Both the position numbers and the translations under genes were made by a program. The notes beneath the pieces are model-generated. The model was not told where the DNA came from. It worked only from the letters and a program-made list of their open reading frames with translations, and ran no database searches. Shown piece after piece: positions 2,448-33,965 of a stretch of 35,896 bases of DNA; position 1 is the stretch's first letter; the number at the start of each line of letters is the position of its first letter. Source of the DNA: a virus; IMG/VR virus record IMGVR_UViG_3300044712_001468, positions 1 to 35,896 of that record, one strand, 5' to 3'.

Positions 2448-3584
2448 ATGACCGACGTTGCCATTACTCTCCCCGCGACCCTGGTTTTAAAAGATGACTG
2501 GCGTCAGGCCATCGAGTTGTTTTTGGCCAGCCGTAACACGCCGGCCACGCGGCGATCTTACGCGGCGGCGCTCCAGGACCTGCTCACAACAGCCAACCGG
2601 TTGCCGTGGGAGGTTACCCGGACCGACGTGATGCGCTGGACGCTGGGCCTGAAGGGGCGTGGGTTGGCCGCGGCTACGATTTCCAACCGTCTGGCGGCGG
2701 TTTCATCGTTTTACCGGTTTTGCATGGAGGAGTACCTGATTCCGGGTGGGGATGGCCGCGACGTGCCGATCCATGCGAATAACCCGGCAGCGGGCAAGAG
2801 TTTGCGGCCACGGGTGGAAATGTACGGCAAAGCGGCCTGGCTGAGCCCGGACGAGGCGAAGGCTTTGCTTCACGCGATCATTCCCCCAAACTCTGATCAG
2901 GCTACGCCCCTGGCCAGGCGTAATTTTGCGCTGGTGTTGGGCTATATGCTGCTGGCCAGGCGCAATTCGGAATGGAGAGTGGCCAGGTGGGGAGACTTCG
3001 AAAATCGGGCCGGGCGGGTGGAATATCGCTGGGCCGGGAAGGGCAAGCGCGATCAGCGGATCGCGGTGCCGGTGCCTGTTTGGAACGCGGTGGTCGAATA
3101 TCTGATTGAGGCAAGCCGGCTGGATGGGATCCGGCCTGAGGATTATATTTTTGCGCCATGCAAGGAAAAAATGACCATGCCGGGCGGGCTGGTGATGGAT
3201 AACGATCGGGCGATCAGCGCGCATGAGGTTGGACGCATCCTCAAGCGCTATTGCGAGATGGCCGGGTTGAATGCTGACCAGCTCCACGTGCATAGTCTGC
3301 GCCACACCGGGGCCATGCTGCGGCGCGAAGTGGGAGCCTCGCCGGAGGAGATCATGGCGTTTTTGGGTCATGCCAATTTGGGCATTACCGGGATTTATCT
3401 GCACGCACTGGAGGGAAAAAAGGATCAAAACTGGAGTTCCGTAGCGGATTTGTTAGGCATTTCGAACATTAAAAACGTTATACAAGACGCCCAAAACGGG
3501 GCGAAAAATGGCCGTTTATCGTCTGATAACAGTTGTTATCGGACGATGGGCGGGAAATCGCAAAATTCAGAGGGCAAAAAGTGA
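2448..3584 (+). CDS. int: tyrosine-family site-specific integrase
   Basis: 378-aa tyrosine recombinase that would integrate and, with a directionality factor, excise the prophage. Residues about 15-100 form the SAM-like core-binding domain (FLASRNTPATRRSYAAAL). The catalytic domain from about 130 has the full active-site set: Arg172 in ARRNSEW, Lys198 in GKGKRDQR, His282 and Arg285 in HSLRH, His308 in LGHANLG and nucleophile Tyr317 in GIYLH. It has about 50 residues beyond the catalytic Tyr, a Lys/Asn/Ser-rich tail that is longer than usual. Its stop overlaps the next start (TGATG), so expression is coupled to the replication genes. The adjacent upstream gap would hold attP. A second, serine-type recombinase is encoded at 28124. 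Confidence 0.93.
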   Translation: MTDVAITLPATLVLKDDWRQAIELFLASRNTPATRRSYAAALQDLLTTANRLPWEVTRTDVMRWTLGLKGRGLAAATISNRLAAVSSFYRFCMEEYLIPGGDGRDVPIHANNPAAGKSLRPRVEMYGKAAWLSPDEAKALLHAIIPPNSDQATPLARRNFALVLGYMLLARRNSEWRVARWGDFENRAGRVEYRWAGKGKRDQRIAVPVPVWNAVVEYLIEASRLDGIRPEDYIFAPCKEKMTMPGGLVMDNDRAISAHEVGRILKRYCEMAGLNADQLHVHSLRHTGAMLRREVGASPEEIMAFLGHANLGITGIYLHALEGKKDQNWSSVADLLGISNIKNVIQDAQNGAKNGRLSSDNSCYRTMGGKSQNSEGKK

Positions 3585-3814
3585 TGCAAAATTGCCGTCG
3601 TTACTATGATCTGAGAGAGCACTGGGTTCACGCCGGGGTAACGGCCCGACAAAATGGGATAGAGCCTGAACGAACTCCAGAATGGAACGAGGCATTAAAT
3701 CGCTTGCGGGCACACGCTGAAATCTGCGAACAGTGCATCGCGGCCTTGTTTTCTGCTTTTCCTGAAACCGAGGGAAAGACAATTTTTATCCTGAGCGTGA
3801 TGGAGAATTCATGA
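3584..3814 (+). CDS. small Cys/His-containing hypothetical protein, 76 aa
   Basis: The frame is open from 3533, but the ATG at 3584, overlapping the integrase stop as TGATG, is the likely start. The product carries an HAEICEQC motif near residues 44-51 that could contribute to a metal site, plus a Cys at position 4. The rest is charged and helical (TPEWNEALNRLRAHAEI). It ends in an ATGA overlap with the replication initiator, so the three genes are co-translated. No family recognised. Possible roles are excisionase or a replication accessory factor, neither shown by the sequence. Confidence 0.6.
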   Translation: MQNCRRYYDLREHWVHAGVTARQNGIEPERTPEWNEALNRLRAHAEICEQCIAALFSAFPETEGKTIFILSVMENS

Positions 3815-4734
3815 TCCAACTCACTGCAACCATGATCCGGACGCTGAAGGGCTGTCCGATTTCCGTGGTAATCGCGCTGATGGTCAACCGTGCCCCGGCC
3901 ACTGCCCAATGGCTGGAGCGCACCACCGGCTATAGCGATAAAGTCGTATTGTCGGCCCTCCAGTTTTTACAGGAGAACCAGTTCATCACCCGCAACGGGC
4001 GCTATACCTGGCAGTTGGCTGATGGTGTCGAGCAGCTTCCCCTGGGGGCGGCCTTGCTCGAAGAGCCCAAGCAGACCGGGACCCGGAATTTCTCCGAGTC
4101 GGAGATTCTCCGACTCGGAGAAATTCCGGGTCCTCTAGCTAGATCTAGATCTAGTATTCTAGATCCTAAACTAGAAAAGAATCTAGATCTAGATTCTAGT
4201 GATGACCCGGAGAAATTCCGGGTCGAGGAGAATTTAGCGGAATGCGACCGGCAAAAAATCCGCGAACCGGCGAAGACGAGGATTTCGAACCTGCCGCATG
4301 TTTCAGCGGAATATATTCGGTACATCTGTAAAACGAGCAACGGCAATGGTTTGGCGATCACGCGGATGGATAGAGGGGATAGGGGGCCTGGGTATATCGC
4401 TCCCAAGAAACCGATTCCCGTGCCGGTCGACGATCAGCCAGAGGAAACGTCTGATCCCGTGCCGGTCGACGATCAGGCTGCATCGTGGTGGATTGACATG
4501 ACTGAAAAACTGCGCGAACTTTTGCCAAGCAAAGCTGTTTTTTTGAGCTGGGTACAACGGGACGCGCCGGCGCGCAGGATTGGAGATGCGCTGGTGGTGC
4601 TGGCCAGCAACGAGATGACCGGTAAAACGATCATCGAGCACCTATCTCAAGCCGTGCTGAATGACCTGGTCCAGGCGATCAGCGGCGGGGCTGTAAACCG
4701 AATTTATTTTGTAACTCATTTCGAAGGAGGATAG
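3811..4734 (+). CDS. putative replication initiator (winged-helix N-terminus, DnaA-domain-I-like C-terminus)
   Basis: 307 aa. Residues 1-70 look like a winged-helix DNA-binding domain: TTGYSDKVVLSALQFLQENQFITRNG reads as a recognition helix plus wing, as in phage O- and DnaD-type initiators. Residues 90-225 are a polar, low-complexity linker whose DNA contains an origin-like palindrome and CTAG repeats (4079-4224) and a tandem PVPVDDQ repeat. Residues 226-302 (WWIDMTEKLRELLPSKAVFLSW, then DALVVLASNEM and a final RIYFV strand) follow the order and spacing of DnaA domain I, which binds helicase and other replication proteins. It presumably melts the internal origin and recruits host helicase, as lambda O does with P. 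No helicase or loader gene is visible nearby, so the DnaA-like tail may fill that role. Confidence 0.6.
   Translation: MIQLTATMIRTLKGCPISVVIALMVNRAPATAQWLERTTGYSDKVVLSALQFLQENQFITRNGRYTWQLADGVEQLPLGAALLEEPKQTGTRNFSESEILRLGEIPGPLARSRSSILDPKLEKNLDLDSSDDPEKFRVEENLAECDRQKIREPAKTRISNLPHVSAEYIRYICKTSNGNGLAITRMDRGDRGPGYIAPKKPIPVPVDDQPEETSDPVPVDDQAASWWIDMTEKLRELLPSKAVFLSWVQRDAPARRIGDALVVLASNEMTGKTIIEHLSQAVLNDLVQAISGGAVNRIYFVTHFEGG
4079..4224. other. candidate phage replication origin inside the initiator gene
   Basis: A perfect inverted repeat with 27-base arms (4079-4105 and 4107-4133) and a one-base centre contains two opposed copies of a 17-bp element (4080-4096 and 4116-4132). A third, direct copy follows at 4208-4224. 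Between them, about 70 bp is packed with nine CTAG tetranucleotides, including two direct copies of ATCTAGATCTAG (4143-4154 and 4181-4192), each followed closely by TTCTAG. This AT-rich, iteron-like block inside the initiator's linker codons parallels lambda ori within gene O. Origin function is inferred. Confidence 0.6.
4417..4476 (+). repeat. 21-bp direct repeat in the initiator gene
   Basis: Two identical 21-base copies (4417-4437 and 4456-4476) start 39 bases apart and encode the repeated peptide PVPVDDQ. They lie between the candidate origin and the DnaA-like domain. This may be a simple linker duplication or a further protein-binding repeat. Confidence 0.7.
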
Positions 4735-4735
4735 C

Positions 4736-6139
4736 ATGACCATCACAAAAACAACTGCTCCAGATGTGATGTGGTTTGATCCGGATATGATCAAACCCAA
4801 CCCCTACCAACCCAGGGAAGCCGAAGATCCTGCGCACATCTGCAAAATTGCCGAGTCAATTTTTCAAGACGGCCTTTTGCAAATTCCGGTTGGGCGCACG
4901 GTGGGCGGTTATGTTGAGCTGGCTTTTGGTCACACGCGCTGGCGGGCGGTTCAACTGCTCAACAATATCGCTTTGCTGGGCCTGTACAACGGGTATGATC
5001 TGACCGGCTTTCCGGTGCTGGCCAATTTTGTGGCGGATCGGGTTTCGAACCAACTGGCCGAAGGTGCCCTCCAGCACTGGAAGTCTTTCCCGGTCATCAT
5101 CCGCAATTTGAGCAACGAAGAGATGTTCAGGCTGGCCATCAGCGAGAATGTATCTCGCAAAGACCTCACGCCACTTGAAGAGGCGCGCAGCATGAGGCGC
5201 TACCAGGACGATTTCGGGAAGACGTCCGTTGATATCGGGCGCCTGTTCGGCCTGAGCGATTCGGCGGTGAGAAATAAGATGCGGCTGTTGAAACTTCCGG
5301 AAGCAGTACAGAACGCCTTGCGGAATCGCGATTTGACCGAGGGCCAGGCGCGCGCGTTGGTGCCGATGTACGATCTTCCGGATGATGTGATCGCCGCGGC
5401 GGAAAACAGCGATGCGCTGAAGCCGTCTGATATTTTAGAGGTGGCGCTTTCTGGTGTGGCGCCGGCCCAGATCGGGATATTGGTGGCGAAGTTTATCAAG
5501 CGGATCGAGGGTGAGAAGGTGTCCGTGGGGCAATACAGCATTGATAGCTTTATTCCCCAGGACCCGGAAGAAACGGACGCGGACCGGGAAATAGAAGCGG
5601 CGATAGAAGCCATTCCCCAGGTTGCCCCGATTGCCTCACCGATTCCTGCCCCAATTCCTGCCCCAAAGCCAACCCCGGTGCCGGTTATGGCGCCAACCGT
5701 TTCTATGGAAACGGTTGGGAAAAAGTCGGAGCCGGAACGTGAGCGGGAATCGGCGCAGCAGCAGATTGACAAAGCGATCCAGCATATTGAAAAAGAGATT
5801 CAGAAACGCCAGCCGCAACCGCAACCAGAAAAGCTGCCCGATGTGGTAATTCCAGCCCCCGAGCCGGTTATCGAAAAGCCGGCAGAGGCAATAATCAGCC
5901 CGGCGGTTGATCCGGTGAAACCAACCGTTTCTATGGAAACGGCATGGGACGCGGCGACGATTACCCTGACGTTGACCTATTGGCCGGAGGACGGCAACGA
6001 GCTGGGCCGCCCGGTAATGGTTGGCGCCCGGATCAACCAGGGAATGCCGAAAATGGTGATGATGCGGGAATCGCAAATCGAATTACCCGAACAATTGCGC
6101 AATCTCACGAGCATTTTGAAAAACGAATTTGGAGGATAG
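4736..6139 (+). CDS. parB: ParB-family protein of the PRTRC cassette
   Basis: 467 aa. The N-terminal ParB/Spo0J nuclease-like domain has the CTP-binding boxes GHTRWRA (residues 65-71) and ENVSRKDLTPLEEA (137-150). A helix-turn-helix follows at about 163-187 (TSVDIGRLFGLSDSAVRNKM). Residues about 280-400 are Pro/Glu-rich and disordered, with PTVSMET occurring twice. Residues about 400-467 form a small beta-rich domain (AATITLTLTYWPEDG) not typical of chromosomal ParB. Translation starts after GGAGGATAGC. No ParA gene is near. The downstream Ubl, E2-like, JAMM and E1-like genes identify it as the ParB of a ParB-related, ThiF-related cassette. Two parS-like palindromes lie inside this gene. It may bind DNA near the origin for replication, segregation or transcription control; its true role is unknown. 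Confidence 0.85.
   Translation: MTITKTTAPDVMWFDPDMIKPNPYQPREAEDPAHICKIAESIFQDGLLQIPVGRTVGGYVELAFGHTRWRAVQLLNNIALLGLYNGYDLTGFPVLANFVADRVSNQLAEGALQHWKSFPVIIRNLSNEEMFRLAISENVSRKDLTPLEEARSMRRYQDDFGKTSVDIGRLFGLSDSAVRNKMRLLKLPEAVQNALRNRDLTEGQARALVPMYDLPDDVIAAAENSDALKPSDILEVALSGVAPAQIGILVAKFIKRIEGEKVSVGQYSIDSFIPQDPEETDADREIEAAIEAIPQVAPIASPIPAPIPAPKPTPVPVMAPTVSMETVGKKSEPERERESAQQQIDKAIQHIEKEIQKRQPQPQPEKLPDVVIPAPEPVIEKPAEAIISPAVDPVKPTVSMETAWDAATITLTLTYWPEDGNELGRPVMVGARINQGMPKMVMMRESQIELPEQLRNLTSILKNEFGG
5693..5718. promoter_or_regulatory. parS-like palindrome 1 inside parB
   Basis: Perfect 11-bp arms around TATG: CCAACCGTTTC, then GAAACGGTTGG. The core GTTTC-N4-GAAAC matches the arms and spacing of the bacterial parS consensus TGTTTCACGTGAAACA. 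It encodes the first PTVSMET of the ParB linker. Binding is inferred. Confidence 0.55.
5925..5942. promoter_or_regulatory. parS-like palindrome 2 inside parB
   Basis: CCGTTTC-TATG-GAAACGG with perfect 7-bp arms. It lies in a 22-base stretch (5921-5942) identical to 5693-5714 and encodes the second PTVSMET. By eye no other GTTTC-N4-GAAAC site was found in the window. Confidence 0.55.
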
Positions 6140-6573: not shown

Positions 6574-7473
6574 ATGGATACGGCAGTCGTCTCGATGACG
6601 ACGTTCCAGGATGCGAGCTGGAGCCTGCGCCGGCGAAAGATGCCGACGTTTGACCGGATGGTATCACGGTTGGGGAAGGTCAAATTTATGGCTGAATCGG
6701 CGCGCATCCTGGAAGCCTTGAATCAGGAGAGATTCAAAGAAATTAAACCTAAAATAAAATTTTTGAACAATGATGAATGTAATGATGTGCTTGCGGCAGC
6801 ATTGGGTGAAATCACCCTCGTTGCACCATTAGATATGGAATTTATCGAGTTGAATTTATCCGACTTCGATGGACTGATCACCAGCTTGCCGCCTGAACCC
6901 TATGGTTTCCCAATTAGCTTGGATGAATGGGAATCTATTACGCAGGACCTGGAGGGGTGCGCGGAATCGCTGGGGTTGTATGTTTTTTTTACCGCGCTGC
7001 GGCTTGGAGAGTATAGCGTACTGGAAGCTGCCGCGAGTCGTTTCGGATGGGATTTTCCGGATAATCTCAATTTTGACAGGTATGGAGACGTGGATTGGAA
7101 ACTCCTATTTGAAAAATTAGATCAGGCAGGCTTGGGGTTCTATAAAAACGCGATAGATGTTTGCCACTACTCTACGGGAAATCCATATTTTGATTACAAC
7201 CCGTATGATGAAGAACTAATTCACGACCTTCCTGAATATTCCCTCGAGGGAGTGCGCGAATTGCAGCAGGAGTGGATCGAGTCAAAACCGATTCTCGCTG
7301 ATTTTCGCAGGGCCGAAGAGCGGTTTGAGCATAACCCATCCAGGGAGTCGTGGCGATTATTGAAATTATATCTATCGTGCTGCGAGAAACGATCTCGTGC
7401 CCGGGTGCGCACAAACGGCAAGACCCTGGTCGAGATTTTTGGAGAGGAGGAAATCAGTGAACCAAACCGATGA
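6574..7473 (+). CDS. uncharacterised PRTRC-cassette protein, 299 aa
   Basis: Starts at the ATG one base after the preceding stop; the open frame extends upstream, but those codons lie in the Ubl gene. Features: a basic N-terminus (SLRRRKMPTFDRM), an acidic central region, a hydrophobic helix (AESLGLYVFFTALRL) and a Cys/His/aromatic motif CHYSTGNPYFDYNP near residues 197-210. Lower GC than the flanking genes, especially 6720-7230. Its place between Ubl and E2-like genes equals that of accessory proteins (such as protein F) in other PRTRC cassettes. I think the TGNPYFD motif may relate it to protein F, but this is weak. It could be a conjugation target, adaptor or E3-like partner. The end overlaps the E2-like gene by 17 bases. 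Confidence 0.55.
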   Translation: MDTAVVSMTTFQDASWSLRRRKMPTFDRMVSRLGKVKFMAESARILEALNQERFKEIKPKIKFLNNDECNDVLAAALGEITLVAPLDMEFIELNLSDFDGLITSLPPEPYGFPISLDEWESITQDLEGCAESLGLYVFFTALRLGEYSVLEAAASRFGWDFPDNLNFDRYGDVDWKLLFEKLDQAGLGFYKNAIDVCHYSTGNPYFDYNPYDEELIHDLPEYSLEGVRELQQEWIESKPILADFRRAEERFEHNPSRESWRLLKLYLSCCEKRSRARVRTNGKTLVEIFGEEEISEPNR

Positions 7474-8155
7474 ACCACAGACGCAAACATTTGAAATGTT
7501 GGCGTTACAGCCCGAGAATTTCCCTGTGCAGGGTGCCCTGTACTTTTTAGACGGTCATTATCTTTTTCGGTATGGAGATGGGAAGAAGATCCGCTCGAAA
7601 TTTGTAACATCCAAAGACCTGGCTGCGGCGTTTTCGCAAACCGAGCAGGATACCGGGTGGATCACGCCGGGAATTGTGCGGATGGGGTCTTGCACGCGTG
7701 GAACATGGTCCGTTTATAGTGCGCCTGAGCAAAAAGTGACCATCGGATTGAGCGAGGCTGAAAGCCTGGAAATACCGATTCCGCGAACGGTATGGCTGGG
7801 TATCGAAGATGCGCATTTTGTTTGGGCGTTGAAAGATAGGCGATTCGAACCGGGCGCCCAGGCGTATCATGCCCCCTTCCCAAACGTGCATCCGGATGGG
7901 CGAATATGTTGGGGTCAGAACCGTATACCGAAGGCGGATCCCAAAAAGGTGCGCGGCATATTTGAATTGTTTTTCGGTTCGTTGTTTAATGGCGATCTTG
8001 TAGGGAATAAATCCGCCAGCCAGCCAAACGACGTGAGAATCGCATTGCGCGAATTGGCGGAAAAGAAAGCCAGGGGCTACCCGGTGCATGACCTCGTTCC
8101 CGGCGGATTGAATAAAATTGGCAGTTTGATCGAAAACAAAATCAAGGGGGCCTGA
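7457..8155 (+). CDS. PRTRC protein B-like, E2-fold conjugating enzyme candidate
   Basis: GTG start at 7457 with GAGGAGG at 7444-7450; the frame extends upstream, but only this start has a ribosome site. 232 aa, near the size I recall for PRTRC protein B. The signature AYHAPFPNVHPDGRICWG (136-153) parallels the ubiquitin E2 active-site run (P...FHPNV...G.ICL), placing Cys151 as the candidate thioester cysteine. Upstream strands (GALYFLDGHYLFRYGDGKK, TRGTWSVYSAP, ESLEIPIPRTVWLGI) and the final helices fit a UBC-like alpha/beta layout. In the pathway it would receive the Ubl from the E1-like enzyme encoded at 8748 and pass it to a target. Stop and next start overlap as TGATG. Catalysis is inferred. 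Confidence 0.7.
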   Translation: MNQTDEPQTQTFEMLALQPENFPVQGALYFLDGHYLFRYGDGKKIRSKFVTSKDLAAAFSQTEQDTGWITPGIVRMGSCTRGTWSVYSAPEQKVTIGLSEAESLEIPIPRTVWLGIEDAHFVWALKDRRFEPGAQAYHAPFPNVHPDGRICWGQNRIPKADPKKVRGIFELFFGSLFNGDLVGNKSASQPNDVRIALRELAEKKARGYPVHDLVPGGLNKIGSLIENKIKGA

Positions 8156-8760
8156 TGTTTGTCCATCATATTTTTGCACACGAAACAAAACTTCCACCGA
8201 TGCAGCCCGGGCTATATGAATACGTGATCGGCGCGAATGGAATATTTGTGCGGGCGCAACGTCCGGGGCTTGAAGCTTTGATTTGGGTGGCATCTACTGT
8301 GAAACCTGTGCGAGGGTTGGCCGAAGTTATGCCGTATGTGCGGCTCAGCAATCGGGTGCGGGCCCACCTCCTGGCGCGTTTGTTCGAAATGGCGTTTCGC
8401 GCAAACGGTAAAGAAATTTTGTTTTACCTGTCCGGAAATCCGTGGCAGGTATATGTTCCCGATCAGGTGCAATCGGTAGCGAGTGTCCATCCGGTTGACG
8501 TGTTCGCCGGCGGGCAAGATACTCTTTTGGAGGTTCACAGTCACCATAACATGGGCGCATTTTTTTCGGGGGCCGACGACAAGGAAGAATCGGGCGGTTT
8601 CCGGATTTTTGCTGTGATGGGTAACCTCGCTGTCCAACCTACGATTCTGGTCAGGGTTGGCATTTACGGTCATTTCTGGCAGATCCCGGCGGCGTTGGTT
8701 TTCGAACTACCCAACGGTGTGCGGGATGGATTGGGCATGGAGGAAGAATGGACGAACTAA
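8155..8760 (+). CDS. PRTRC protein A-like JAMM/JAB metalloprotease (deconjugase)
   Basis: 201 aa with an intact zinc-metalloprotease motif: His128-Ser-His130, seven residues, Ser138-Gly-Ala-Asp141 (HSHHNMGAFFSGAD). The following GGFRIFAVMG and VRVGIYGHFWQIPA segments are as I remember PRTRC protein A. JAMM proteins cleave isopeptide bonds or trim C-terminal extensions of ubiquitin-like proteins, and the Ubl at 6141 has just such an extension. The first 100 residues form a beta-rich N-terminal half (YEYVIGANGIFVRAQ, EALIWVAST). AAGGGGG precedes the ATG. It overlaps the ThiF gene by 13 bases. Cytoplasmic. Confidence 0.82.
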   Translation: MFVHHIFAHETKLPPMQPGLYEYVIGANGIFVRAQRPGLEALIWVASTVKPVRGLAEVMPYVRLSNRVRAHLLARLFEMAFRANGKEILFYLSGNPWQVYVPDQVQSVASVHPVDVFAGGQDTLLEVHSHHNMGAFFSGADDKEESGGFRIFAVMGNLAVQPTILVRVGIYGHFWQIPAALVFELPNGVRDGLGMEEEWTN

Positions 8761-9539
8761 ACCTGGATTATTTGAATGCGCGCCGGCTGCTGGTGTCGAA
8801 TTCTGGAACTGTGACGTTGATGTTGGTGGGGTGCGGTGGAACGGGGTCATGGTTGGCACCTTCGGTGGTGCGGATCGCGCGCTTGCTCAAAGAGCAGTTT
8901 AACAAAGCGGTCGATGTTTATTTTATCGATCCGGATCACGTAGAGGAAAAGAATTGTTTTCGGCAGAATTTCTGCAATGCCGAAGTCGGGCGAAATAAGG
9001 CGGATACATTAGCCTGGCGTTATGGTCTGGCCTGGGGAGTTGAGATTATCGCAATCGCGGGTAAATTAGAGACGTGTCGAATTGACCTCATGAATCGCGG
9101 CCTGGCCGTGGTGATCGGCTGTGTGGATAATGCCGCGGCGCGGCGGACCATTGCGGAAACGGTCAAAATGTATCGCTGTTGGTGGCTGGATTGCGGCAAT
9201 CACCAATCGTCTGGGCAGGTCCTTTTGGGCAGCGGATTGGAGCGGCCTGAGAACCCGTTCCAACTCATGGGGCTATGCTCCTGGCTGCCGCTGCCGACTG
9301 ACCGGCATCCGGAATTACTCGATGACGCGCCGGCTATCAAACGAACGGATGAAAATCTGTCGTGCGCAGAGATGGCCATGCGAGACAGCCAGGGCATGGC
9401 CATCAATCAGCGGATTGCAGCGGAGGCGTCCGATTATCTGGTGCGGATGCTGCTCACAAAGGATTTGTGCAAGCACGCCACGTACATCGACCTGGCCAGC
9501 GGATCCGCAAAGTCGAAATACATACTCGAGGATCGCTAA
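8748..9539 (+). CDS. PRTRC ThiF-family E1-like adenylating enzyme
   Basis: 263 aa Rossmann-fold ThiF/MoeB/E1 domain that would adenylate the Ubl C-terminus with ATP. The nucleotide loop GCGGTGSW starts at residue 28. The DPDHVEEKNCFRQNF segment (61-75) carries the Asp, Arg and Gln that hold ATP and Mg, followed by Lys84. VDNAAARR (126-133) and LDCGN (147-151) are also characteristic. Cys206 in LSCAEMA is the best candidate for the thioester cysteine, as in MoeB/E1 SCAxxG segments. The length is right for a stand-alone ThiF. GGAGG lies four bases before the ATG. Completes a Ubl-E2-JAMM-E1 set in one operon. Confidence 0.87.
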   Translation: MDELNLDYLNARRLLVSNSGTVTLMLVGCGGTGSWLAPSVVRIARLLKEQFNKAVDVYFIDPDHVEEKNCFRQNFCNAEVGRNKADTLAWRYGLAWGVEIIAIAGKLETCRIDLMNRGLAVVIGCVDNAAARRTIAETVKMYRCWWLDCGNHQSSGQVLLGSGLERPENPFQLMGLCSWLPLPTDRHPELLDDAPAIKRTDENLSCAEMAMRDSQGMAINQRIAAEASDYLVRMLLTKDLCKHATYIDLASGSAKSKYILEDR

Positions 9540-28105: not shown

Positions 28106-28146
28106 TTAACTCAAAAACGACATCTAGGATGTCGTTTTTGAGTTAA
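28106..28146. terminator. strong bidirectional terminator
   Basis: Perfect 18-base arms (28106-28123 and 28129-28146) around CTAGG, with A5/T5 tracts inside the stem, between convergent genes. It ends the late operon on the plus strand and the serine recombinase on the minus strand; the recombinase stop codon (TAG) lies in the loop. Confidence 0.9.
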
Positions 28147-29737
28147 GCGATGTTACAAATTTATGCCTATGGCTTGGTGCCCCCACGGGGGGCGGGTGCC
28201 ATAGACATAAATTATTTGAGGAGAGTTCAACCGCTTCAGGGGGGTGGTAATAGGTGATCAGGCCGCGCAATACGCGCTCTTTTCGTTCTACTACGATTTT
28301 GGCGACCAGGGAGCGCAGGGCCTGGTGCAGATCGGTGATGCGCTGGGGGTCGGTGGTGAGGTCGACGAACTGGCGGCTGAGTTCGTCGATTTGGGCCTGG
28401 GTGAGGGTCGGCGGGCGATGATCGGCGGAGAGTTCCATCAGGTGGGCCAGTAGTTCGGTTTGTTCGGCTTCGAGCGCGCGCAGTTTTTCGGTGAGGGCCG
28501 GGGATTTGCCGAGTTCGGCGATGGTTTCGACGACGTTGGCCAGGCGGCGGCGGGTGTGCGCCAGGCGTTTATTGGTTTCGGCGCGTTCGGCGGCGATCAG
28601 GGTCGCTTCCGATTCGGCTGTGCGGTCCAGTTCGGTTTGATGGGTGGCGATGGTGGCGGGGTTGATGATTTCGCCGGCGATGGTGGCCATGACGACCGTT
28701 TCGAGCATCTGGCGCGGGATTTGTTCCGCGGTACAATCGTGGCGGCGGTGGCCGGCAGAGCATTGGTAATATTCGTAGACTTGCTCTTTTGCTTTAAAGC
28801 TGATGGTGTGGCCAACCATCGCAGAGCCGCATAGGGCGCAATGGACCAGGCCGGAGAGGAGATAGGTGGAGTTGGCGCGGCGGGGATGGTCGGGGTTGGA
28901 TTGGGTGCTGCGGTGGACGGTGATGGATTGGACGGCATCCCAGGTGTTCTGGTCGATCAGCGCTTCACAGTAGCCGGTGATCGTGATGCCGGCATAATGC
29001 AGCTCGCCCAGGTAGAGCCGGTTTTTGAAAAAGGTGTTGTAGGAATTGATGGCCGGGTAAAGGTGGGTGGCGGCGTGGATTTGGTGGAGGGTGGCGCGGC
29101 GGGCGCGCATCTGCCAGGCGATTTTGCACGCCTCCCATGCGGCCGGGTTGGGTACCCAGCGGTGAACAATATGGGGGGAACCGTCGCGGCGTTTGCCTAC
29201 GTCGATGGGCTCACGCATAAAGCCGGCGGGGGGATTACCGGGGACGGCGCCATAGGCGGTGACCAGGTGGGCCAGGCCGCGTTTGACGTCTAAAGATAGA
29301 TCAGATAAAAACTGTTCGTTTTTCCAGTCGATAATTGCCTCGAACAATTTCCCGATAGGGCCTTCGGGGATTGAATCGTTCAAAGAATAAAATAAATATC
29401 CATGTCTGCGAATGTCGGCTCTATAAAACTGAGAGTCGTCTAAACTTCTCGAAAAGCGTTGATAATTCCAAATAACCAGGCCCGCCTCAGGTTGCTTAGC
29501 TGCTCTCAGGTAATGAATCATTTTGCTGAAGTCTTCACGGCCAATCAGGCTTGACCCTGGTTTTGCCTCATCTTTAAATATTTTAGTGATCGTGAGACCA
29601 TTGCGGAAAGCCCACTCTTGGATTGCAGATTCTTGCTGGCAGATTGAAAGGTCCTGTGATTCTCCGCCTGAGTCACGCAAATAGGCAACTATTGATGATC
29701 CTGTTGTAAATGGATGGCTTGTAGTATTATCATTCAT
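28124..29737 (-). CDS. large serine recombinase (second integrase)
   Basis: 537 aa. The N-terminal resolvase domain has IVAYLRDSGGESQDLSICQQ with nucleophile Ser23 and Arg21, then WNYQRFSRSLDD. A recombinase domain follows (PPAGFMREPIDV, LHQIHAATHLYPAINSYNTF). The zinc ribbon is LVHCALCGSAMVG ... YYQCSAGHRRHDC. A coiled-coil segment (KRLAHTRRRLANVVETIAEL) and a C-terminal tail complete it. Length and order are normal for large serine integrases. Base composition changes abruptly near 29290: the catalytic-domain codons are AT-rich (one sampled 60-base line is 38% GC), while the rest is very GC-rich (77% in a sampled line). The genome already has a tyrosine integrase, so this may be an older or competing integration system, or a transposon-like passenger. 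Confidence 0.9.
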   Translation of the reverse strand: MNDNTTSHPFTTGSSIVAYLRDSGGESQDLSICQQESAIQEWAFRNGLTITKIFKDEAKPGSSLIGREDFSKMIHYLRAAKQPEAGLVIWNYQRFSRSLDDSQFYRADIRRHGYLFYSLNDSIPEGPIGKLFEAIIDWKNEQFLSDLSLDVKRGLAHLVTAYGAVPGNPPAGFMREPIDVGKRRDGSPHIVHRWVPNPAAWEACKIAWQMRARRATLHQIHAATHLYPAINSYNTFFKNRLYLGELHYAGITITGYCEALIDQNTWDAVQSITVHRSTQSNPDHPRRANSTYLLSGLVHCALCGSAMVGHTISFKAKEQVYEYYQCSAGHRRHDCTAEQIPRQMLETVVMATIAGEIINPATIATHQTELDRTAESEATLIAAERAETNKRLAHTRRRLANVVETIAELGKSPALTEKLRALEAEQTELLAHLMELSADHRPPTLTQAQIDELSRQFVDLTTDPQRITDLHQALRSLVAKIVVERKERVLRGLITYYHPPEAVELSSNNLCLWHPPPVGAPSHRHKFVTSLNSKTTS

Positions 29738-30523: not shown

Positions 30524-30949
30524 GGGATTGGCGGGAGAAGTGAACTGGAGCAAGAATGGGATTGTTGCAACCAGAGTCCAATCATCCTGCCCTTCTTCTT
30601 GCTTTTCAACAAAGAATTTATAAATGCCACTTCCTTTTACTACAATTCCATTGGAGTGAATCCGTGTATAGTGGAAAGTGGTTTCTTTGAGATCAATGGG
30701 CATTTCAATTTGCTGCTTTCTCTCGTCATTGGGGATGGAAAAAGTAAGCCGTAACTTGCCCTTAGTGCTTATATCGAGCGAGGAGCGCATCCAAAAAGAA
30801 ATAATATCAAAGCGAAGTGGAAGACGCTTGATTTTTTCGGGATCTCCCTCAATCGCTATGGTTGCTATTGCATTGAACGTGCTTACATTGCCGCTTTCAT
30901 TATCTACTGCGGCGCTTTCACATAAGACAGTCCAAATATGTTCGATCAA
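30515..30949 (-). CDS. hypothetical protein, 144 aa (third gene of the HigBA operon)
   Basis: TTG start overlapping the antitoxin stop (TTGA), with GGGAGG six bases upstream. Reads as a beta-sandwich-like protein (SGNVSTFNAIATIAIEGDPE, LPLRFDIISFWMR, KGKLRLTFSIPND, GIYKFFVEKQEEGQDDWTLV), similar in style to the small DUF6941-like proteins found beside phage and mobile-element genes. No catalytic motif. Co-translated with the toxin-antitoxin pair, so it may modulate it. Function unknown. Confidence 0.6.
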   Translation of the reverse strand: MIEHIWTVLCESAAVDNESGNVSTFNAIATIAIEGDPEKIKRLPLRFDIISFWMRSSLDISTKGKLRLTFSIPNDERKQQIEMPIDLKETTFHYTRIHSNGIVVKGSGIYKFFVEKQEEGQDDWTLVATIPFLLQFTSPANPQK

Positions 30950-31374
30950 TTGGAGCCTCCCATCGTTTCAATACTTGCACTCTGGGCGCTGGCAGGTTTT
31001 CCGGTTCTGTAATTTCCGCAAAATACATTGTCATCCTGGTGATCTATGCGGATATCGGTTTCCGGTCCGTAAAAAAAATTTGATGTTGAAGATTCTTGGG
31101 ATCTGTTTATCTTGGAAAAGGTAAGATTAAGATCGAGGGCATCGCATAAGCGCCGGATCAGGTCAAGGGTTGGATTGGCGATGGCGGATTCGATGTGTGA
31201 GATATTCGCCTGACGCGTTTGAACTCGCCGGGCAAGTTCTGTTTGAGACCAGCCTTTGTCCGTTCTGGCGTATAAAACCGCATTTGCCAATTCAATTTGA
31301 AAACGGAGTTTATGCTCAGCTTGAACATATTCTGGATTTTTTCGTAATTCGTTGATTAAGTCTTCGTGATTCAT
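30946..31374 (-). CDS. higA: XRE-family antitoxin (HigA-like)
   Basis: 142 aa. The HTH_3 domain is at about 38-88: WSQTELARRVQTRQANISHI, then ESAIANPTLDLIRRLCDALD. It is preceded by an N-terminal helix (YVQAEHKLRFQIELANAV) typical of HigA/XRE antitoxins encoded after HigB. An extra polar tail of about 45 residues lies beyond the family norm. ATGA overlap with the toxin. It would neutralise the toxin and repress the promoter at 31791-31819. Such modules stabilise prophages or block other phages. Confidence 0.82.
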   Translation of the reverse strand: MNHEDLINELRKNPEYVQAEHKLRFQIELANAVLYARTDKGWSQTELARRVQTRQANISHIESAIANPTLDLIRRLCDALDLNLTFSKINRSQESSTSNFFYGPETDIRIDHQDDNVFCGNYRTGKPASAQSASIETMGGSN

Positions 31375-31730
31375 TTGTCTTCCTCGGATTGCTGATCGTA
31401 ATAATCTTGTCTGTATTCCTTGGCTGTAGCTATTTCATCACGATATGATCTGCGGCTGTGGTCTTTAAATCCATTGGTGATGACGATTTTATTTTTATCG
31501 AAGAAAAAGTAGAGCAACCTGTATTGATTTTTTATTACCCGAGTGCGCAGTTCATAAATGCCGTCCTCGAGGTGGGCGGCTAGTGGGCGCCGGGCCTGAT
31601 TGCCTAAAACCGCCAATCGAGAAACATCGTTCGTTATAAGTACTTGATGCTCTGCTTCTACATCTTCTTCAAGGAATTCTTTTGCCGGACAGCGTTGGTT
31701 GCGCTTTTTGTAGTATTTAATGATGTGCAT
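31371..31730 (-). CDS. higB: HigB-like toxin (RelE superfamily, gp49-type)
   Basis: 119 aa from the second of two nearby ATGs, with AAGGA eight bases upstream; the frame opens at 31754. PLAAHLEDGIYELRTRVIKN, then QYRLLYFFFDKNKIVITNGF, is the HigB/gp49 signature of ribosome-dependent or RNA-cleaving RelE-fold toxins. The catalytic-side basic cluster DHSRRSYRDE follows. The toxin-first order is as in HigBA systems. Confidence 0.8.
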   Translation of the reverse strand: MHIIKYYKKRNQRCPAKEFLEEDVEAEHQVLITNDVSRLAVLGNQARRPLAAHLEDGIYELRTRVIKNQYRLLYFFFDKNKIVITNGFKDHSRRSYRDEIATAKEYRQDYYDQQSEEDK

Positions 31731-32060
31731 GCGCATGTTCCTTGCGGCGTGCATTTGCAGAGCGATGGATTATATCATTTATGCTATAGAAGTCTAGCAT
31801 TTTGCCTCCTGGTTGTCAATCGGGCAAACGTTCGATATATTACCCCACTCTATGTGCCTTTTGGTAATCACTTTACAAGCTCGCAACAAAGGAAGCCATA
31901 AGACAAAATGTAAAAAACGCGCAAAATATCGCCATTATTCGGTTAATCGGCTTGGGGCTTTTGCGAGCTAAAATTCCCGTAAGAAGTGCCACTATAAAGT
32001 TGAGGTATGGATTTAAAAATATATTCATGCTTTATCTTTGTTATTATGTCGAAGCATCGG
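31731..32060. other. 330-bp intergenic region upstream of the toxin-antitoxin operon
   Basis: No gene supported. It holds the leftward promoter at 31791-31819 and the near-palindromic TATATCAT/ATGCTATA motif (about 31771-31789), a possible HigA operator. The AT-rich 31850-32050 stretch shows nothing else definite. The plus-strand open frame from 31952 runs into the antisense of the exonuclease. Confidence 0.5.
31791..31819 (-). promoter_or_regulatory. promoter of the HigBA operon
   Basis: On the minus strand TTGACA (31819-31814), a 17-base spacer, then TAGACT (31796-31791; 4/6 to the -10 consensus). Located about 60 bases before the toxin start, with an imperfect palindrome downstream that would suit antitoxin autoregulation. 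Confidence 0.6.
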
Positions 32061-32089: not shown

Positions 32090-32902
32090 TTATTTAACCA
32101 GCATAAATTCGGCTATGAACTCATCCGGAGTTACTACCCGGATGGTTCCACCTTTACTGTTATAGCGTCTGGTTTTTTCCAGCTTTGGGGTGTCCTGATC
32201 CATGAAATCGACAATAATCATTGTAGTGGAGTAGGTGATCGCATTTTTGATGGTGCCGCCATTTGCCATAATAAATTGACTGATCGAAAAAGGAATGGTG
32301 TAACCATCAAGTGCAAATGTCTGGTTGGCGAATATTCCGGATGGGGTTTTATTTTCAGAGGCAATGAATTCACCGTGTTTTTTGTACCATTCCGAGATCG
32401 GCGTTTTCGATTCTGCCACGGCCTTCAAAAATATTTGACCGCACACTCGGGCATCTTCCAGGGCATTGTGGTGCTGATAGGTCATGCCGAACTCTTTGGC
32501 TACATTTTTGAGTTTATAGCTCTCTGAAAATTTTTCGGGCCAAACGTTCCGAACGGCAATGCTGGCATCCAGCCACATGAATTGAAGCGGTGGTAACTGA
32601 TTTGCTTCAAATGCATTCAGCAGACTTTGTTTATCGAACGCGGTATAGGTGATAACGATTCGCCCGCCGATCAGTTCTTTGAGGGTTGGATAAACTTCAT
32701 GAAATTTTGGGCAGCCGATCACGTGTTCTTCGGTGATTTTATGGATTCTTTTATTCATTTCCGAAAATTGCGCGCATGGGTCGATCAAGCTGTCCCAGGT
32801 GGACATATTGCCATTTTCATCAAAAATGCAACTGCCAATCTGGCAAATACTCCCACGGCTACTATTTGCAGTCTCAACATCCAGGCTTATGAATGAAGTC
32901 AC
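32090..32902 (-). CDS. DEDDh 3'-5' exonuclease (DnaQ/epsilon-like) with C-terminal BRCT domain
   Basis: 270 aa from a GTG with GGGAGG five bases upstream; the frame opens further upstream at 32920. FISLDVETANS gives the first Asp/Glu pair, TAFDKQSLLNAF the second Asp region, and HHNALEDARVCG the His-Asp. The C-terminal 85 residues (GIFANQTFALDGYTIPFSIS, then QFIMANGGTIKNAITYSTTM) have the BRCT layout with the GG turn. This fusion is known in bacterial epsilon-like exonucleases. It could act in repair, replication proofreading or nucleic-acid defence of the prophage. Confidence 0.82.
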   Translation of the reverse strand: MTSFISLDVETANSSRGSICQIGSCIFDENGNMSTWDSLIDPCAQFSEMNKRIHKITEEHVIGCPKFHEVYPTLKELIGGRIVITYTAFDKQSLLNAFEANQLPPLQFMWLDASIAVRNVWPEKFSESYKLKNVAKEFGMTYQHHNALEDARVCGQIFLKAVAESKTPISEWYKKHGEFIASENKTPSGIFANQTFALDGYTIPFSISQFIMANGGTIKNAITYSTTMIIVDFMDQDTPKLEKTRRYNSKGGTIRVVTPDEFIAEFMLVK

Positions 32903-32934
32903 CGTTTCCTCCCATAACAATTTCTGGAATTTTT

Positions 32935-33332: not shown

Positions 33333-33965
33333 CTATCCCTTCTTAGTTATCGACTCAATTGCAGTCATAATAAATTCGGATTTCTTTTTCCTGATGAAAA
33401 ACGCCACGCCCAAGAAAATAAATGCAACCGTCATAATCCCAACGCCCAGTTCTTTTTGAAATGCAAGGCTGACAAAAAATAGTAATATACCTGAGATCAA
33501 AATGATCTGAAAATCTCTCGGTTGACCATGTTGATTGCCTTTTTGAAGAACCGCTACCGGGATCGAGGGGTCGATCTGGGGCGCGCGATTAATGTTCTGT
33601 TTCTTCGCCAGCCATTCGCTTCGTGCCTTTGATTCTTCGCTCGTCAATAGGGCGAGTTTGACATTAACTCCCCTGGTGGTTTTTCCGCTTTCATCTCCAC
33701 CGGTAATATTTAAAACTTCGCAATCTATTTCCTGGTGCGCATCCATAAGCGGCGCCAGCTCTGCGGCAAGTTCACGATTGATATAACCCACTGTGTAACA
33801 TTCGTCCGGATTGCCCAAATCAATCCGCACTACGATTGCATTGGGGTCATACCGATTCTCTGGTTCTCGTTCAAGTAGCAGCAAATCCCCTTCTTTAACG
33901 TCTTCGATTATATGTTTTTGGTAGTGTGACACGCCGACTAACTTTGTATTAATCATTCTTGCCAT
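33333..33965 (-). CDS. HIRAN-domain membrane protein
   Basis: 210 aa. Residues about 6-100 form a HIRAN domain: TKLVGVSHYQKHIIEDVKEG, LLLEREPENRYDPNAIVVRI, YTVGYINRELAAELAPLMDA. HIRAN domains bind single-stranded 3' ends or stalled-fork DNA. Two transmembrane helices follow near 153-171 (FQIILISGILLFFVSLAF) and 175-192 (GVGIMTVAFIFLGVAFFI), so the DNA-binding domain would be tethered to the inner membrane. An unusual arrangement that may fit sensing of invading DNA. Confidence 0.78.
   Translation of the reverse strand: MARMINTKLVGVSHYQKHIIEDVKEGDLLLLEREPENRYDPNAIVVRIDLGNPDECYTVGYINRELAAELAPLMDAHQEIDCEVLNITGGDESGKTTRGVNVKLALLTSEESKARSEWLAKKQNINRAPQIDPSIPVAVLQKGNQHGQPRDFQIILISGILLFFVSLAFQKELGVGIMTVAFIFLGVAFFIRKKKSEFIMTAIESITKKG

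Follow-up and report, generated by a model that had tools for sequence, protein, structure and literature searches.

A predicted replication origin of palindromic boxes and a symmetric AT-rich core inside the initiator gene of an uncultured phage family

The phage genome and its predicted initiator gene

The stretch of DNA analyzed here (IMG/VR record IMGVR_UViG_3300044712_001468; 35,896 nucleotides, hereinafter the window) is a circular phage genome of 35,769 bp with a 127-bp terminal repeat, and has genes for a terminase, a portal protein, and an integrase. One of its plus-strand genes codes for a predicted initiator protein, the end of which is followed after 2 bp by the start of a downstream gene for ParB. 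The features of the initiator gene and of the element lying within it are:

3811–4734, plus strand: initiator gene, 307 aa, with winged helix-turn-helix (wHTH), disordered linker, helical domain, and DnaA-domain-I-like C-terminus
3817–4032, plus strand: winged-helix codons (residues 3–74), presumed box-binding domain (AF2 pLDDT over 90, wHTH fold matches)
4080–4100, no strand: left box 1 (outer), GACCCGGAATTTCTCCGAGTC
4096–4116, no strand: left box 2 (middle), GAGTCGGAGATTCTCCGACTC
4112–4132, no strand: left box 3 (inner), GACTCGGAGAAATTCCGGGTC
4133–4203, no strand: AT-rich core that contains the nine CTAG motifs and is presumed to be the unwinding element (GC 0.32 against 0.54 for the gene)
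4139–4160, no strand: core inverted repeat, left arm (own score 32, matched by 0/1000 shuffles of either kind)
4178–4199, no strand: core inverted repeat, right arm (same core symmetry score)
4204–4224, no strand: right box (box 4), GACCCGGAGAAATTCCGGGTC
4480–4731, plus strand: codons of the DnaA-domain-I-like C-terminus (family profile and fold match)

Anatomy of the element

An earlier note on this DNA had picked out an origin-like palindrome and a cluster of CTAG motifs in the linker codons of the initiator, and its description of the anatomy stands. The block occupies codons 90–138 of the gene, in a stretch that the predicted structure renders as a low-confidence linker (residues 73–131). 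The 55-nt palindrome has two 27-nt arms (4079–4105 and 4107–4133) that are 100% complementary with 1 nt between them; it is the longest perfect inverted repeat in the window (spacer up to 8), as against 8–10 bp in six Markov-simulated windows. The further copy that the note reported corresponds to a 21-bp box at 4204–4224, 95% identical to 4112–4132. Likewise, nine CTAG motifs are packed into 65 bp (4135–4199), whereas the densest 70 bp among 200 simulated windows holds three. These make up half of the 18 CTAG in the window, for which shuffling predicts 54.1 ± 7.4, and the motif is therefore depleted in the rest of the window.

The 55-mer resolves into three overlapping 21-bp palindromic boxes of the type GAGTCGGA-N5-TCCGACTC, set at 16-bp steps, such that the full unit consists of three left boxes, followed by a 71-bp AT-rich core and then the fourth box, with a second inverted repeat (4139–4160/4178–4199) inside the core whose arms are made up of the CTAG run. 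The 13-mer CGGA-N5-TCCG has three additional occurrences in the window, while the full box is confined to the element.

The unit is shared by an initiator family

The window protein as a single query against IMG/VR and the genome collection retrieved no relative, and tblastn searches, whether with it or with its relatives, likewise came up empty in 50,697 phage records and 72,556 plasmid records; exact-box DNA scans gave no match, and ParB as query gave no viral relative. The first relative was reached via the terminase and displays this anatomy in the matching linker. Alignment searches added four viral loci and one contig from a metagenome-assembled genome (MAG), all with the unit, and the 12 loci from a final protein-first scan were without exception already known with the element; the unit is thus carried by all relatives found through the protein alone. 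A DNA-only pattern scan of IMG/VR for two boxes 79–109 bp apart recovered 44 loci, in which the AT-rich cores fall inside an initiator-family ORF in 24/24 cases and the GC-rich cores in 0/20, the latter (core GC 0.53–0.71) lying in unrelated sequence. As the members found DNA-first were chosen for their boxes, the unbiased support comes from the protein-first set and from this separation by AT-rich core.

Altogether, the box/AT-rich core/box unit is present in the same initiator linker of 24/24 relatives (23 viral loci and one MAG contig), giving 25 distinct members with the window. The genome collection contributed a single member (L021; MEWP01000028.1), which belongs to a MAG labelled Zixibacteria; no further members were found in 30 other genomes of that phylum, and the contig may be misbinned or derive from a prophage.

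Boxes are conserved as DNA and the core as a symmetry

The boxes are maintained at the level of DNA. Across the members they are found in all three reading frames (frames 0/1/2: 11/11/3 for the inner left box and 7/16/2 for the right box), and the box pair was re-created in just 2–746 of 20000 synonymous codon shuffles of the genes of seven members, probabilities that are not independent of each other because the genes are related. The outer arms of the boxes co-vary such that dyad symmetry is kept (e.g., GACCC...GGGTC in the window): the observed value is 0.78 versus 0.66 ± 0.02 after shuffling, and 0/2000 shuffles reach it. Additional left boxes are seen in 10/25 members, invariably at a spacing of 16 bp, and full boxes (at most one mismatch) are absent elsewhere in the examined DNA of every member. 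The distance between the inner boxes ranges from 79 to 108 bp; a helical phasing of this spacing (90–92 versus 101–104) failed across the 25 members.

The core has a mean GC of 0.34 against 0.52 for the gene across members, an average that includes one wrong box pair (L062; its pair was assigned by hand for the frame counts and the core-symmetry scores). In most members the two halves of the core form an inverted repeat, with a mean local score of 24.3 versus 11.1 and 12.5 for two kinds of shuffles, and versus 16.3 for pairs of halves taken from different members; in four members (L017, L048, L069, and L070) the symmetry falls short of p<0.05 against triplet shuffles. The letters of the core vary among members (TAG, TTA, GTT, or CTAGAT) while the symmetry is retained: the arms are filled by TAGTAGTAGTAG/CTACTACTACTA, CTTATTACTACTA/TAGTAGTAATAAG, or TGTTGTTAATGT/ACATTAACAACA in relatives and by CTAGATCTAGAT in the window. 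CTAG is therefore the window phage's own filling of a symmetric core, and the proposal that it serves as the iteron has to be dropped: what is both iterated and conserved is the 21-bp palindrome, and the core of most relatives holds arrays of TAG, TTAC, or TTA instead.

Domains of the initiator protein

In an AlphaFold (AF2) model of the initiator, a confident winged helix (residues ~3–74) is followed by a disordered linker, which covers the element, and then by a helical and a C-terminal domain; the latter has a conserved Trp and Phe. The fold matches of the wHTH part include MarR-like proteins; lambda O and DnaD structures are not among the matches listed, an absence that excludes neither. 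A C-terminal profile built from seven members matches domain I of DnaA (4tps, 6e-13, and 8btg, 8e-12, both from B. subtilis; 2e0g, 2.5e-6), and DnaA_N (PF11638) is detected above the Pfam cut-off in six members. The window initiator taken alone has no direct Pfam match to DnaA domain I; a fold search with its C-terminus placed B. subtilis DnaA domain I at the top (Z 7.9, rmsd 2.6, 75 residues), followed by other DnaA structures, with unrelated folds and the helicase loader DciA just slightly below. Since a Z under 8 is by itself no proof, the case for the window C-terminus rests on homology to the other members. Hence, going by profiles and predicted structures, the C-terminus is a DnaA domain I at the level of the family, an assignment that for the window protein is one of fold.

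Neither the AAA+ domain III nor the DnaA-box-binding domain IV has a Pfam match in 22 member proteins (208–333 aa). Several relatives are without DnaA domain I and have short or different C-termini; accordingly, the C-terminus seems to be a modular part behind a constant wHTH and predicted origin. The PHROG family ‘replication initiation O-like’ shows weak matches to some members (best 6.7e-5) and none to the window protein; weak matches to DnaD-like PHROGs are also seen among members.

Alternative readings of the element

The strongest rival reading, which we nevertheless consider unlikely, is that of an operator or copy-control site, whereby the wHTH protein, bound to the boxes, either blocks transcription within its own gene as a road-block and so represses it, or handcuffs two copies, with replication starting elsewhere. 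The MarR-like matches of the wHTH fold and the dyad-symmetric, dimer-type sites would suit such a role; however, the boxes lie ~270–410 nt into the gene rather than at a promoter, and an operator has no need for an AT-rich, inverted-symmetric core and an inner-box spacing of 79–108 bp in every member. The C-terminal DnaA domain I also points toward the recruitment of a helicase. Origin sites can also act as operators, and repression could accompany origin function.

A structured mRNA, with a hairpin controlling translation or decay, would draw on the ability of both boxes and core to pair (as RNA, the window element folds with −91 kcal/mol). We regard it as very improbable: on the mRNA strand the core arms have 7 G·U-type pairs versus 20 A·C and 32 other mismatches, folding of the opposite strand is as good or better in most members, and the Watson–Crick dyads of the box arms are kept whatever the reading frame.

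The proximity of the ParB gene, and the palindromic nature of parS sites in general, raise the question of a centromere for the downstream ParB. Such a site would not require an AT-rich core, and two separate parS-like palindromes (GTTTCTATGGAAAC; 5699–5712 and 5927–5940) lie within the parB gene itself, while several box-bearing relatives are without a visible ParB-like product just downstream (judged by eye on partial loci); we therefore give this reading even less credence than the mRNA hairpin. Least probable of all is a selfish in-frame palindromic repeat akin to the Rickettsia palindromic elements, or nothing more than the coding of a low-complexity linker, which would account for the in-frame position in a disordered linker but not for full boxes restricted to one gene family and to a constant position within it, their failure to be recreated by synonymous shuffles, their compensatory symmetry, or the finding of box plus AT-rich core in unrelated genes in 0/44 pattern matches.

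A probable intragenic origin and its proposed mechanism

The block is probably the theta-type, lambda-like replication origin of the phage, situated within the gene of its own initiator, a function that we infer from what is directly seen: the anatomy, the conservation as DNA in all three frames, the restriction to the initiator gene, the AT-rich core and its symmetry, and the protein domains. Comparison lends good support to the central proposal of the earlier note, an origin within the initiator gene resembling that of lambda O: the unit recurs in the linker of every relative found, the constraint is independent of frame, and the protein has wHTH and DnaA domain I. Iterated sites and an AT-rich tract both lie inside the initiator coding sequence, as in a lambda O-type intragenic origin. 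Along with the CTAG iteron, the turn of GC skew that the note expected at the element falls away: the skew is +0.14 on one side and +0.09 on the other, with the extrema of the detrended curve at 34.7 kb and 9.2 kb. The missing turn is weak evidence because gene orientation probably dominates the skew in this genome.

In the mechanism that we propose, each dyad-symmetric 21-bp box would be bound by a dimer through the winged-helix domain, with one to three such boxes to the left of the core and one to its right. The complexes bound on both sides would strain the AT-rich, inverted-symmetric core, which may then melt, possibly via hairpin extrusion. To the opened core, the C-terminal DnaA domain I would bring the replicative helicase of the host or the loader of that helicase, and the core's mirror symmetry would permit loading on both strands. 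In E. coli, DnaB loading requires domain I of DnaA (PMC5448010). Among the window proteins scanned (part of the ORFs), none was recognized as a helicase or a helicase loader, and no DnaA box is found near the element in the window. As several relatives are without DnaA domain I, helicase recruitment would not be alike in all members.

More tentatively, and with somewhat less than even confidence, we suggest that these phages represent an undescribed initiator-origin family. A winged helix linked to DnaA domain I would here do what the DnaA machinery does, and the core would be selected for mirror symmetry (as a hairpin or cruciform, or as two opposed loading tracks) rather than for sequence, its letters drifting freely between relatives. 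Because the inverted symmetry is kept while the sequence changes completely, it may be structure, rather than any fixed motif, that governs unwinding. We found no description of the initiator family, of its DnaA-domain-I initiator, or of the symmetry-conserved core in the papers and libraries searched or among annotated phages or plasmids. An uncultured phage family thus gains a predicted initiator and an origin predicted to the base pair, and the link of a phage initiator to DnaA domain I suggests that a phage DNA-binding domain acquired a bacterial module for helicase recruitment. The initiator gene can, moreover, be found in raw sequence by its DNA signature alone (boxes plus AT-rich core).

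Relationship to known initiators and origins

An origin within an initiator gene is a known kind of arrangement. The lambda origin lies inside gene O (PMC7466680) and shares with the present element its position in the middle of the initiator gene and its repeated initiator-binding sites (predicted here) beside an AT-rich tract, with some relatives showing the weak O-like PHROG matches noted above. Unlike in lambda, the boxes here are on both sides of the core and overlap at 16 bp, and the core is an inverted repeat; the protein has a DnaA domain I as its C-terminus, with Phage_rep_O absent among the listed Pfam matches of the 22 members and no P-like loader seen among the window proteins scanned. 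Similarly, oriL of SPP1 lies inside gene 38 (PMC6316719), with repeats and an AT-rich unwinding element (presumed in our case) within the initiator gene; however, SPP1 has its own helicase loader and helicase, whereas none was recognized among the proteins scanned here, and no relation to gp38 was seen.

With bacterial DnaA, the family shares the homology of domain I, but no AAA+ or DnaA-box-binding domain was found in the members. Runs of TAG trinucleotides by the boxes in many relatives recall the DnaA-trios, the 3'-GAT-5' trinucleotides of bacterial DnaA and oriC (PMC10201434); these runs are mostly of opposite polarity to those of B. subtilis (~16 members versus 5), and the window has none, with CTAGAT hexamers instead, such that the resemblance is a lead only. 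The DnaD-like helicase loaders and replisome organizers of phages likewise have an N-terminal wHTH, and the weak DnaD-like PHROG matches are a further resemblance; in the place of the DnaD C-terminal domain, which was not found, the present protein has DnaA domain I.

Other features of the genome

Several further features of the genome were recorded. The second linker of the initiator, ahead of the DnaA-domain-I part, contains a perfect 22-nt direct repeat, TCCCGTGCCGGTCGACGATCAG (4416–4437 and 4455–4476, 39 bp apart). Directly 3′ of the initiator gene (4736–6139 and 7397–9539, plus strand) is a PRTRC-like cassette with ParB-related and ThiF-related proteins, its members being ParB, PRTRC_B/E2-like, PRTRC_A/JAB-like, and PRTRC_ThiF (149.4 bits, above the cut-off); sites similar to the parS-like palindrome of its parB gene (GTTTCCNNGGAAAC) occur in L016, L043, and L048. 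A tyrosine integrase (2448–3584, plus strand) and a large serine recombinase (28124–29737, minus strand) are both encoded in this one 35.8-kb phage genome. At 30946–31754 on the minus strand, a small HTH protein lies beside a small look-alike of RelE/HigB-type toxins (by eye), a possible toxin–antitoxin pair. The AT-richer right arm of the genome also codes for a fusion of an exonuclease (RNase_T) to a BRCT domain (32090–32920, minus strand) and for a HIRAN-domain protein (33333–33965, minus strand).
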